In this document: positions 4,382 through 10,491 of the stretch, one piece after another
How the letters are laid out: every line of letters starts with the position of its first letter
Numbering within the stretch: the stretch's first letter is position 1
Virus record (IMG/VR): IMGVR_UViG_3300036817_000110
Location: 1-21,096 of that record
Reading direction: 5' to 3' (one strand)
Source of the DNA: a virus
DNA length: 21,096 nt
Position numbers and translations under genes: made by a program
Notes under the pieces: generated by a model
Seen by the model: only the letters and a program-made list of their open reading frames with translations
Told to the model about the DNA's origin: nothing
The model's database searches: none

Positions 4382-4590
4382 GCGGTTTTCGTCCAAATAG
4401 TCTGCTGAAATGTGCCAGTGCCGATAGCGAAGCTATCCACGACGACCAAAGCGTAGCCATCTGCAATGGCCTGGGCTTTGGCAATCGCCGCGTCTCGGTT
4501 CTCCCACACGGACTCACGACCTTTTAGCAGTGTCCAGCGTGAGGCTTCGCCGGTATCGGAAACCCATATTTCATAGCGAAAGTTCTTCAT
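4378..4590 (-). CDS. hypothetical phage protein, 70 aa
   Basis: Begins MKNFRYEIWVSDTGEASRWT. The pattern is strand (YEIWVSD), strand (WTLLKG), helix (ENRDAAIAKAQAIADG), strand (YALVVVDSFAI), then TFQQTIWTKTA. It could be a compact alpha/beta fold with a hydrophobic core. No metal or catalytic motif is seen. Overlaps the next gene by 4 bases and follows the 4594-4947 gene by three, so it is embedded in the operon. Function unknown. Confidence 0.7.
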   Translation of the reverse strand: MKNFRYEIWVSDTGEASRWTLLKGRESVWENRDAAIAKAQAIADGYALVVVDSFAIGTGTFQQTIWTKTA

Positions 4591-4593
4591 GGT

Positions 4594-4947
4594 TTAAACC
4601 TCAATTCCCGCGCGGTCGCACACCTTGCGCGCGGCTAATTCAAAGCCTGCCCACGCGAGCCAGTCACAATTCCAGTTCATGCCGTTATGTGGTAGCAGCG
4701 GTTCGCCCACTTCGTCCGCATACTCGTCTAGGGCTTCCATGATTTCGACCAAATGCAGCTTGGCAAATGCGATGCAGTCAACGTGATAGATGAGGTCCGA
4801 AACGATGCCGGAAATGCAGCCATGTTGAAACAGCTCAGCGGCGGGGCCTTCGGCGCCGTTTTCGTAATCCGCCCCGCGTTCATTGAGCCATTCAAGCGCG
4901 GCGAGTTCTAGCGGGTTGGTGGCATGCGATGCGGCGATGATTTTCAT
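4594..4947 (-). CDS. hypothetical phage protein with HGCISGIVSDLIYHVD signature
   Basis: This 117-aa acidic protein has ordered helices throughout. Residues 42-57 (HGCISGIVSDLIYHVD) and the following helix (AKLHLVEIMEALDEYADEVGE) resemble a widespread small phage/plasmid family with a conserved G-C-x-S-G-x-V-x-D-L-I-Y segment; I recall it as a domain of unknown function but cannot verify the name. NWNCDWLAWAGFELAARKV closes the protein. Start ATG at 4947. No catalytic assignment is available for that family. Confidence 0.75.
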   Translation of the reverse strand: MKIIAASHATNPLELAALEWLNERGADYENGAEGPAAELFQHGCISGIVSDLIYHVDCIAFAKLHLVEIMEALDEYADEVGEPLLPHNGMNWNCDWLAWAGFELAARKVCDRAGIEV

Positions 4948-4957
4948 GGGTTAACTC

Positions 4958-5260
4958 TTAGCTGTAATAGGTGGCGATGATGACGGTATCAAAGGATGCA
5001 AACTTGATGAGTGTGCCGCTGAAATAGGTGTCGGACTGGTAGCCATGCCATGCCTGCATTTGATCCTGCGGATCGATGGGGTTTGCTTGCTTTGGCACAG
5101 GCATAAACTCGTTGGTGTCGTAATACTGTCCCTTGTACTTGACCAAACGCATGGAATAGGTGTCATCGCCTGTGATGTAGTCAAAGTCCGCACGGAAGCG
5201 TTCAGGAATATCGATTAGTCCAACTAGCTCGCGCGGCTGATTGTTGGTCTTAATTTTCAT
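4958..5260 (-). CDS. hypothetical phage protein with two related aromatic modules
   Basis: This 100-aa protein contains two similar segments: residues 26-50 (DFDYITGDDTYSMRLVKYKG then QYYDTNEF) and 71-95 (WHGYQSDTYFSGTLIKF then ASFDTVIIA). Both read aromatic-x2-D-T-Y-x4-L-[VI]-K-[YF], so an internal repeat of a small beta unit is likely. The neighbouring 5257-5607 product carries a third copy (YLNAGDFYASTLVRWRGHYR). The start overlaps that gene's stop (ATGA, 5260-5257). No enzyme motif is seen; a beta-sheet binding domain is the most that can be inferred. Confidence 0.75.
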   Translation of the reverse strand: MKIKTNNQPRELVGLIDIPERFRADFDYITGDDTYSMRLVKYKGQYYDTNEFMPVPKQANPIDPQDQMQAWHGYQSDTYFSGTLIKFASFDTVIIATYYS

Positions 5261-6956: not shown

Positions 6957-7158
6957 GGGGTCGGGGGTCAGATGTTGCGCTGAAATGGTGACCCCAAAAT
7001 TTTGAGACTGTGCCTGGGTTTGGTCTATGGGGTCTAAGGGGTCTTACTAAATTTAATATATATAATATAGGTAATAACTGAGTTAATAATTACTAAGTTT
7101 ATAATTTGCTTTTCTATACGGTTTTAAAGTGGGGGTGACCCCGGACACCGCAGACCCC
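6957..7158. repeat. array of seven GGGGTC motifs flanking an AT-rich tract
   Basis: GGGGTC on the plus strand starts at 6957, 6964, 7029 and 7038. The reverse form GACCCC starts at 6990, 7137 and 7153. The copies at 7132-7142 form a perfect GGGGT-G-ACCCC palindrome. The four forward copies lie left of the AT-rich tract and two reverse copies right of it, so these six point inward. Such arrangement fits cooperative binding by a phage regulator or replication initiator. The binding protein is not identified. Confidence 0.6.
7044..7127. promoter_or_regulatory. AT-rich tract with TATAAT elements, likely promoter or unwinding region
   Basis: This segment is markedly AT-rich compared with all surrounding sequence. 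It contains TATAAT at 7061-7066 and 7100-7105 on the plus strand and several -10-like strings on the minus strand. No -35 box with good spacing is apparent on either strand, so exact promoters cannot be drawn. It is the natural place for transcription of the 6586-6918 gene to start, or for duplex melting if the GGGGTC array is an origin. Confidence 0.4.
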
Positions 7159-7746: not shown

Positions 7747-8010
7747 ATGTCCCTCAACCCCAATCATCCCTATGCCCCTCACCGGCCAAATCGCCCCTGG
7801 CCGAACTGTCATCCCTTCACTCACTATCCACCCAATTACGCCCGTCTCCCTTACGTCTTTGCCATCCCTTATGACGTAGGTCTTTTCTACACCCCTTTGG
7901 GCCAACGCCTTGCGCTCTACAACCCATCCCTGTATAGGGAGGTCAGGAATGCCCTCATCCGTTTGGACCAAAAGAGGGAGTCTCGCTACCGAGAGCTGTT
8001 AGCGATGTAG
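7747..8010 (+). CDS. small Pro/Tyr-rich hypothetical protein, 87 aa
   Basis: Residues 1-60 are dominated by Pro, Asn, His, Arg and Tyr (MSLNPNHPYAPHRPNRPWPN). The last 25 residues form a strongly charged helix (REVRNALIRLDQKRESRYRE). A GTG at 7729 would add six residues; neither start has a good ribosome site. The charged C-terminal helix argues for coding on this strand rather than the minus-strand frame over the same bases. First gene of the rightward unit. No family recognised. Confidence 0.5.
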   Translation: MSLNPNHPYAPHRPNRPWPNCHPFTHYPPNYARLPYVFAIPYDVGLFYTPLGQRLALYNPSLYREVRNALIRLDQKRESRYRELLAM

Positions 8011-8038
8011 GCCAACCACAGCAGAGGGAAACCAGACC

Positions 8039-8452
8039 ATGACGCAAGGCAAAAAGGCAGGAACGCGCTACTCACTCGCGTTTAAGCGGAAGGCACTAGA
8101 AAGGGTGATCGCGGGAGAGTCACAAGCAGCAGTAGCAAATGACCTGGGGATGAAGCATCAATCCCTGCACAATTGGGTAAGGCTTCATAAGGATGGCAAA
8201 TTGCCACTGGTAGGGGAGGCATCCAGTACACCGCTAAAACGTACCCAAGGAAAGCGTAGGATTCCTAAGGCCGAAGCCGCCACTAAAAAATCAGGAAAAA
8301 AGTCGCACCACAAGCCCAAGGTTTTGGACGTCCAAATAAACCGCACAAATGCGGTCGCAGAGATACGCATTCAGCGCTTAGAGAGGGAATTGGCGTTCGT
8401 GAAAGCAGATCGAGATATTTTGGTCAAAGCGCTCGCTTCACTGACACGCTAA
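8039..8452 (+). CDS. IS3-family OrfA-like helix-turn-helix protein, 137 aa
   Basis: Residues 11-51 (YSLAFKRKALERVIAGESQA through LHNWVRLHKDGK) match the N-terminal helix-turn-helix of IS3-family transposase OrfA proteins. Residues 105-135 (AVAEIRIQRLERELAFVKAD then RDILVKALASL) match the leucine-zipper end of the same proteins. Between them lies an unusual Lys-rich linker (about 60-96). OrfA normally binds inverted repeats and partners the DDE catalytic OrfB. Here no OrfB, no terminal inverted repeats and no target duplication are visible. A GAGGG ribosome site precedes the ATG, and a strong terminator follows. It is therefore probably a phage DNA-binding protein built on the OrfA plan, perhaps a late-gene regulator or packaging-site binder. 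The domain call is solid; the role is inference. Confidence 0.75.
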   Translation: MTQGKKAGTRYSLAFKRKALERVIAGESQAAVANDLGMKHQSLHNWVRLHKDGKLPLVGEASSTPLKRTQGKRRIPKAEAATKKSGKKSHHKPKVLDVQINRTNAVAEIRIQRLERELAFVKADRDILVKALASLTR

Positions 8453-8467
8453 CGGTGTATGCTGGCT

Positions 8468-8499
8468 CGGCCTCCTGCTGCAAGCGGGAGGCCGTTTTT
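8468..8499 (+). terminator. strong intrinsic terminator after the OrfA-like gene
   Basis: An 11-pair stem (8468-8478 CGGCCTCCTGC with 8484-8494 GCGGGAGGCCG, one G-T pair) closes a five-base loop TGCAA and is followed by five T residues. It lies 15 bases after the stop of the OrfA-like gene. It also covers the first codons of the longest version of the next open frame, which argues that the terminase small subunit really starts downstream. Confidence 0.85.
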
Positions 8500-8518
8500 A
8501 TGTGAGAGGGTTCGCCTC

Positions 8519-9079
8519 TTGGATAAGGAAGGCTTCCAGCTACCGCCACTCTTGCAGGACCGCGCTTACGAGGAGCCGGCCCCTGACCTTCCTGTCACCT
8601 TGGAAGGTCGCCATGCGTTCGTGGAACGCGAACGTTTATCCGGCTTCCCCTCTATCACGCCGATCCAGCGGCAAGTGGCTTTGGAATTCGTGCTGTCCGG
8701 TGCGACGCTTAAAGCGCTGGCCGAGATGCTTGAATTCCCGTTGGCTCAAGTGCAGCGCATGTTTGGCGATCCCATCCTCCGCGCGTTCATCAGTGAACTG
8801 CAAAAAGAATTTGCCGTGCATCGGCTCTTGACAGAGCAATGGGTCGAGTCACAGATACTAAAGAATCTACCCAAATTTGAAGGGGAAGAACCGATACCGG
8901 TGGTGACGCGGGAAGGGGAACAGGTCATGCGCAAAAAGTGGCATGGCAAAGAACTGGTGGCGATCTATAAGGCGTTCGGCGGTAACCCTGACCAGAAGAA
9001 AAACGGTGGCGTCCACGTCACGATTGACTTCAATGCAATGGGCGTCACACGCGACGCCGAAACGATCATCGATGTCTAG
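8519..9079 (+). CDS. terminase small subunit (TerS), DNA recognition
   Basis: TerS recognises the packaging site and delivers genome DNA to the large subunit. Evidence is position directly before TerL and the architecture. Residues 47-83 (TPIQRQVALEFVLSGATLKA then LAEMLEFPLAQVQRMF) form a helix-turn-helix, followed by helical segments suited to ring assembly (FISELQKEFAVHRLL, VESQILKNL) and an acidic C-terminal end (RDAETIIDV) that could contact TerL. The frame is open from an ATG at 8459, but that start would encode the terminator stem. The TTG at 8519 has GAGAGGG eight bases upstream and gives 186 aa. The stop is followed after two bases by the TerL start. The exact start is unproven. Confidence 0.75.
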   Translation: MDKEGFQLPPLLQDRAYEEPAPDLPVTLEGRHAFVERERLSGFPSITPIQRQVALEFVLSGATLKALAEMLEFPLAQVQRMFGDPILRAFISELQKEFAVHRLLTEQWVESQILKNLPKFEGEEPIPVVTREGEQVMRKKWHGKELVAIYKAFGGNPDQKKNGGVHVTIDFNAMGVTRDAETIIDV

Positions 9080-9081
9080 CC

Positions 9082-10491
9082 ATGCTCACGCTGCCCAACG
9101 CATGGCATCCGATGGATCATCAGAAACAGGTGATGGATTACCTGTTCAAGGGCGGCAACTTCCCTGAACGCAAGCGTGCGTTTGCGTGCTGGCATCGCCG
9201 CGCGGGAAAGGACTCAAGCATGATCAATACGCTGGCCGTGGCATCGCAGCTACGTACGGGTACATTCTGGCATCTGCTGCCCACGCTTAACCAGGGGCGC
9301 AAGGTCGTGTGGAACGGCGTGGATTCGATAGGGCGACGGATGATCTTTCAAGCCTTTCCCAAAGAGCTGATCGACGTGCCTAATGAGAACGAGATGACGC
9401 TGCGTCTGAAGAATGGCAGCTTCTATCAAGTCGTCGGGTCCGATAACTACAATAGCCTGGTCGGCGCGAACCCTTTGGGCGTGGTCTTCAGCGAATGGGC
9501 GCTGGCCGATCCCCAGGCATGGAACTTCGTGCGCCCGATCCTGCTAGAGAACGGTGGCTTCGCGGCCTTCATTACCACGCCACGCGGCAAGAACCACGCG
9601 CACGCGATGATGAAGATGGCCCGCCTGTCACCGGAATGGTTCTATAGCCATAAGACCGTCGATGATACTAGCCGTCTAGACGGCTATCCGATTATCACGC
9701 CTGAGATGGTGCAACAAGAGCGCGATGAGGGTGTGCCGGAAGAAGTGATCCAACAGGAATATTATTGCAGTTGGGAAGGCATCAATTTTGGTTCGATCTA
9801 TGGCTCCGCGCTACGTCGCTACGAAGATCAGCAGATCGTTTTTCCAGAATCCTTCCTGCCTAATTTGCCGGTGTTTACGGCATGGGACATCGGACACCGC
9901 GACGCGACCGCGATTTGGTTTTACCAGATCATCAACGATGAGGTTCACATTATCGACTACCGCGAGGGCACAGGCGGCGATGCGGATGATTGGCTGATCG
10001 TGCTGAAAAAATTGCCCTACGCCTATGGCACGCCCGCGCTCCCACACGATGCGAAGAATAAAACCTTCACCACAAAATACACGGCGGCGGAACGCTTCTA
10101 CGCGGCACAGTTGCGACCTTACATTGTGCCCAACATCAGTATCGCGGGTGGCATCCAGGCCGCACGATCCTTGTTTAAACACGTTTGGTTCAACATCGGC
10201 AATCCGCATGTGGTGCATGGCATCGAGCACCTAGAGCAGTATCACTATGAATACGACGAAGTGCTCAAAACCTTTAGCCTTAACCCGGCTCACGATGAGC
10301 ATTCGCATGGGGCCGACGCTTTCCGCATGCTGGCCCTTTCCGAAAACGTCATGCGCGTTTGTGGACCCCGCAATACCGTGGCCGAAGGTGCCCCTTCCGG
10401 CCCCAGCTCGCCCATCGGGCGCAAGCTCCATCTAGAGAACCTGTTTGCCGACCGCGCGTCGCAGCGCGAGCGCCTGTATAGGAGGGTCTAG
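9082..10491 (+). CDS. terL: terminase large subunit (TerL): packaging ATPase and nuclease
   Basis: TerL pumps genome DNA through the portal and cuts the concatemer. The ATPase domain shows a Walker A variant HRRAGKDS (38-45), Walker B VVFSE (134-138, catalytic Glu138) and coupling motif FITTPRG (163-169). The RNase H-like nuclease shows AWDIGHRD (267-274, Asp269), DYREG (292-296), PHDAKNK (321-327, Asp323) and HGADAFRML (409-417, Asp412), giving the acidic metal cluster. Length 469 aa is normal. No Shine-Dalgarno is obvious; the ATG is two bases after the TerS stop, so translation is probably coupled. All expected residues are present, so the enzyme should be active. Confidence 0.95.
   Translation: MLTLPNAWHPMDHQKQVMDYLFKGGNFPERKRAFACWHRRAGKDSSMINTLAVASQLRTGTFWHLLPTLNQGRKVVWNGVDSIGRRMIFQAFPKELIDVPNENEMTLRLKNGSFYQVVGSDNYNSLVGANPLGVVFSEWALADPQAWNFVRPILLENGGFAAFITTPRGKNHAHAMMKMARLSPEWFYSHKTVDDTSRLDGYPIITPEMVQQERDEGVPEEVIQQEYYCSWEGINFGSIYGSALRRYEDQQIVFPESFLPNLPVFTAWDIGHRDATAIWFYQIINDEVHIIDYREGTGGDADDWLIVLKKLPYAYGTPALPHDAKNKTFTTKYTAAERFYAAQLRPYIVPNISIAGGIQAARSLFKHVWFNIGNPHVVHGIEHLEQYHYEYDEVLKTFSLNPAHDEHSHGADAFRMLALSENVMRVCGPRNTVAEGAPSGPSSPIGRKLHLENLFADRASQRERLYRRV

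Follow-up and report, generated by a model that had tools for sequence, protein, structure and literature searches.

The stretch of DNA analysed here (the window), a virus record, spans 21,096 bases; its genes run leftward to ~6.9 kb, clear genes are then missing, and a rightward block follows in the order small gene, OrfA-like gene, small terminase subunit (TerS), large terminase subunit (TerL), P22-type portal and major head protein. The OrfA-like gene (8039..8452, + strand, as are all features of this block located below) begins with ATG and encodes 137 amino acids, comprising a helix-turn-helix (HTH, residues ~9–56), a Lys/Arg-rich linker (~57–108) and a zipper helix (~109–137). It is directly preceded by a gene for 87 amino acids (7747..8010), hereafter the small gene, which is kept across the clade and has no assigned function, and is followed by TerS (8519..9079; 43% identity over 145 aa to the annotated TerS of Stenotrophomonas phage BUCT555) and TerL (9082..10491; PHROG 2, E 2e-23). 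Judged by the portal, BUCT555 is the nearest isolated phage (58% over 72% of the portal), with Myxococcus phages Mx8/Mx9 being more distant. The possibility that the OrfA-like protein is itself the real small terminase was rejected, as the next ORF (8519–9079) matches BUCT555 TerS and is present clade-wide.

The two closest relatives, contigs L003 and L004 (TerL 90–91% identical; L002 and L009 are these same contigs), carry an OrfA-like gene at the equivalent locus. The small gene, shortened in L004, corresponds to 37063–37260 of BUCT555, an assignment based on position and on modest similarity (30% over 40 aa), and is also found upstream of the terminase block in L010–L013, L015 and L016 (in L010–L012 recognised by eye, not by profile). 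Further upstream, direct repeats of GGGGTC, ~100 bp of AT-rich sequence and then inverted GACCCC copies form an array that is common to OrfA carriers and several OrfA-less relatives (window 6957–7158, L003 3785–3962, L009 5201–5357, BUCT555 (L006) 38890–39250), perhaps a replication origin.

According to the preliminary description, which was made from the letters alone, the OrfA-like gene has its own ribosome site and its own terminator. The former holds: the presumed site (8020..8031) was read from the sequence as AGAGGG, 10 nt before the ATG, and is similar in L003 and L004. The latter stands in part. A 12-bp hairpin (8468–8494) followed by TTTTT forms a terminator-like feature (8468..8500) between the OrfA-like gene and TerS, and hairpins of different sequence occupy the equivalent place in both relatives, but their T runs are weak (L003) or poor (L004), and the terminator pattern scan by itself was not significant (4 sites vs 2.6 expected). 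The first in-frame ATG of TerS (8459) lies upstream of this hairpin and would put the terminator inside TerS; TTG 8519 is preferred as the putative start, since in L003 a stop codon lies shortly before the TTG. In a second hairpin (8504..8523; invariant arms GAGAGG/GCCTCTT), the TTG start is paired with GAGAGG, the presumed ribosome site of TerS; this hairpin may control TerS translation, which seems more likely than a role as operator for the OrfA-like protein; the latter was judged unlikely, the arms being invariant and the recognition helix variable. These invariant hairpin sequences are missing from OrfA-less relatives, which have no spacer where the small gene abuts TerS. No promoter-like site was evident in the 28 bp between the small gene and the OrfA-like gene.

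Relationship to IS3-family OrfA proteins

The product had been read as retaining both halves of an IS3-family OrfA, the HTH and the leucine zipper, around a long Lys-rich linker, and profile searches, shuffling tests and structure prediction all bear this out. Pfam HTH_Tnp_1 (PF01527) matches the window protein at 33 bits (cut-off 24.1), and its match extends to the OrfA-like protein in 3/3 viruses (the window and the two closest relatives). The NCBIfam IS3 transposase model covers residues 15–133 (E 6e-9), although the match is far under the model's 160-bit cut-off because the catalytic part is absent. When plasmids were searched with tblastn, residues 1–137 aligned to IS3 OrfA proteins of Polaromonas and Sphaerotilus that are ~94–97 aa long. 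Compared separately with three IS3 OrfAs, the HTH alone (z 16–21) and the C-terminal 32 residues alone (z 7–9.5) scored above all 1000 shuffles, with GCN4, used as a coiled-coil control for the zipper, reaching z 1.0, while the linker (z 0.1, -0.6 and 2.6) did not rise above its 1000 shuffles. By these alignments, both ends of the protein are homologous to IS3-family OrfA from Burkholderiales. Judged solely by these nearest OrfAs, the host is probably a betaproteobacterium.

Four heptads can be read in the zipper, with L114, V121, L128 and L135 at the d positions. AlphaFold predicts a three-helix HTH (13–51), disorder at residues 59–91 and a single long helix (95–136). The best PDB match by Foldseek is Shigella TnpE (2rn7), which is weak (E 0.027). 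Relative to IS3 OrfAs (ISRme13, ISBxe1 and Polaromonas IS3, with IS911 OrfA as the studied model), the phage protein has the same HTH-zipper order, homologous ends and a C-terminus that falls at most a few residues from where IS OrfAs stop, but it differs in that ~40 extra basic residues lie between HTH and zipper (Lys/Arg-rich, pI 10.8). These extra residues are probably disordered. The HTH is of the same superfamily as that of IS66-type TnpA accessory proteins (NCBIfam E 5e-4), but this match is weaker than the one to IS3 and under its cut-off. The KorA/ArdK plasmid regulators (PMC9723621), of which ArdK is among the weak Foldseek matches, resemble the OrfA-like protein only by analogy of layout, with an HTH and a linker before a dimerising helix at the C-terminus; their dimerisation domain is a different one and has a beta strand.

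As the preliminary description had held, the catalytic partner and inverted repeats appear to be absent. Searches of the window and its relatives with OrfB proteins of four elements gave no tblastn match below E 0.36, and searches for IS DNA gave no blastn match below E 0.07. A matrix of IS ends built from the three nearest elements found nothing above shuffled controls; a more distant element might have ends unlike this matrix. Thus, neither an orfB remnant nor nearest-IS ends were seen flanking the gene, which also lacks the usual marks of an IS3 mobile element, namely an orfB with a DDE domain frameshifted from orfA and terminal inverted repeats. A further difference from IS3 orfA is its fixed place within a phage operon, where it is under selection. 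Its edges are not sharply defined, and their length varies among the three viruses.

Distribution and divergence

A survey of related phages, as had been proposed for this gene, found an OrfA-like gene without OrfB 5' of TerS in both closest relatives. Seven of the next relatives have readable upstream sequence (L010–L013, L015, L016 and BUCT555; L014, which has none, was left out). The gene was found in none of these, and all seven have the small gene and TerS. TerL identity is 63–70% for the six contigs and 57% for BUCT555. The small gene directly abuts TerS in BUCT555, L013, L015 and L016, while in L010–L012 other small genes lie between the two, and L010 has an HNH endonuclease (PF13392) between TerS and TerL. 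The accessory genes around TerS in L010–L012 indicate that the region takes up such genes. Since the gene is carried by the two closest relatives and missing from the next relatives that have the small gene and TerS (present in 3 viruses and absent from 7 at one locus), it was acquired specifically by this clade, at a spot that takes accessory genes, and selection has retained it. As to the genes between TerS and TerL, the endonuclease of L010 (3687–4130) is of the HNH_3 type, and L011 has a nuclease-looking protein there (4504–5133; assigned by eye, with no match in Pfam).

The known carriers number only three, all of one clade. A pattern scan of 84,980 species genomes found no bacterial or prophage relatives, a weak result considering that the patterns are narrow. 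When IS OrfAs were added in a wider viral scan, the six other distinct matches were IS3 elements with OrfB; IS3-type OrfA sequences are frequent in phage records. Beyond these carriers, the collections searched yielded no gene that unites an intact HTH and zipper with a basic insert, a fixed locus and selection, and the papers searched contained no report of solitary OrfA genes adjoining phage terminases.

The OrfA-like gene evolves faster than its neighbours: between the window and its kin, the protein is 55–57% identical, compared with ~90% for TerL and 93% for the portal. Its pN/pS is 0.33–0.49 (upper bootstrap limits 0.45–0.66), and that of TerL is 0.12–0.14. Within the gene, the zipper is the most constrained part (dN/dS 0.06–0.17) and the linker the least, these ratios being rough with synonymous sites near saturation. 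The chance that the open frame would survive neutrally was estimated at P 0.06 per lineage at 0.2 substitutions/site and 0.004 at 0.6, so neutral persistence is unlikely, and the comparisons support the view that selection keeps the frame open. Identities of the HTH and of TerS group the three viruses differently, with the HTH pairing L003 and L004 (88%) and TerS pairing the window and L004 (87%); this conflict suggests either that the stretch has recombined or that the HTH of the window went through a burst of change. As the recognition region of the HTH differs strongly between the window and its kin, a shared fixed target is not evident.

Domestication and possible roles

Considering true homology to IS3 OrfA, the lack of detected OrfB or IS ends, the shared locus in L003 and L004, and selection (pN/pS 0.33–0.49), the proposal that a phage has domesticated a transposon DNA-binding protein is well supported by sequence comparison. 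An ancestor of this small phage clade would have captured an IS3-family orfA between the small gene and the TerS gene; the captured gene would then have parted from orfB and the IS ends and been kept as a phage protein. Of the roles considered for this protein, regulation of transcription seems the most plausible, and we put a little short of even confidence in the fuller proposal that it is a homodimeric, site-specific DNA-binding regulator of phage transcription. The protein would be made at the start of the rightward late operon, homodimerise by its zipper and, through its HTH, bind the phage genome at one or several sites, thereby regulating transcription. The long basic linker might uncouple the two HTH heads, allowing spaced or directly repeated half-sites to be bound, and may add non-specific DNA affinity. 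OrfA of IS911 is itself described as regulating transposition (PMC2909936). By way of analogy only, HTH regulators, KorA among them, can straddle operators by virtue of flexible linkers (PMC9723621).

No operator could be named for the OrfA-like protein. The sole striking repeat array nearby (GGGGTC, 6957–7153) was rejected as an OrfA-specific target, as OrfA-less kin, and BUCT555, have the same array. More tentatively, the protein may be a stable phage regulator or packaging-locus protein derived from a transposon subunit, in which a basic arm has been inserted and HTH specificity shifts between close relatives as the zipper stays fixed.

The position of the gene directly before TerS led the preliminary description to propose recognition of the packaging site. 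In such a role, the protein would bind near that site by TerS and help terminase choose or hold DNA. The two conserved hairpins that separate TerS from the OrfA-like gene, found only in OrfA carriers, fit this proposal. However, the invariant arms do not follow the variable HTH, and OrfA-less relatives have no spacer there, so hairpins and gene would be expected to co-occur anyway. The proposal is further weakened by BUCT555, L010–L013, L015 and L016, which have homologous TerS and TerL but no OrfA-like gene; because these next relatives also share the small gene, we take the OrfA-like gene to be added and dispensable to packaging, and a packaging role to be improbable. We hold much the same view of an action against IS elements, in which the protein would form mixed zippers with host IS3 OrfA/OrfAB or occupy IS ends, so that IS3-family elements would be restrained from transposing into the phage or within the host. 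This would agree with the zipper being the most conserved part and closely like IS OrfA zippers, with the regulation of transposition by IS911 OrfA (PMC2909936), with the nearest OrfAs coming from Burkholderiales plasmids and with IS3 elements inserting in phage genomes, but the long linker and diverged HTH match no single IS.

A cargo (moron) gene, also raised at the outset and here taken as one that benefits the host or a prophage and is unrelated to phage regulation, is unlikely but deserves some weight. Its patchy presence, a locus that takes accessory genes such as the HNH gene of L010, faster evolution than its neighbours and the terminator-like hairpin 3' of the gene all fit, but the promoter of its own that such a gene might carry was not evident in the 28 bp gap after the small gene. 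Fast evolution and length variation would also suit a functionless, decaying relic of OrfA, and bacterial plasmids do carry OrfAs for which OrfB was not detected (L092 and L093 have no OrfB frame). Such a relic is nevertheless highly improbable, considering that three diverged viruses keep the gene as an open frame with pN/pS clearly below 1, that its ribosome site is conserved, and that remains of OrfB or nearest-IS ends were not found.

In the OrfA-like gene, the DNA-binding subunit of a mobile element has clearly parted from its enzyme and been kept by selection in viruses; genes of this kind are routinely labelled 'transposase' and then ignored. Should the protein indeed be a transcriptional regulator, phages would be drawing new control proteins from IS elements, and the annotation of solitary phage OrfA genes would need to change. 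Solitary transposase-type HTH genes in phages have a precedent in gp41 of Pectobacterium phage Phoria (UniProt label transposase), a 135-aa protein that matches HTH_Tnp_1 above cut-off (28.3 bits) and likewise has no transposase partner there. It differs in being without the OrfA zipper, in lying in the early region and not at the terminase, and in belonging to another phage group. Located at 25602–26009 of NC_048119.1 (L108), it is a second transposase-type HTH kept in a phage.
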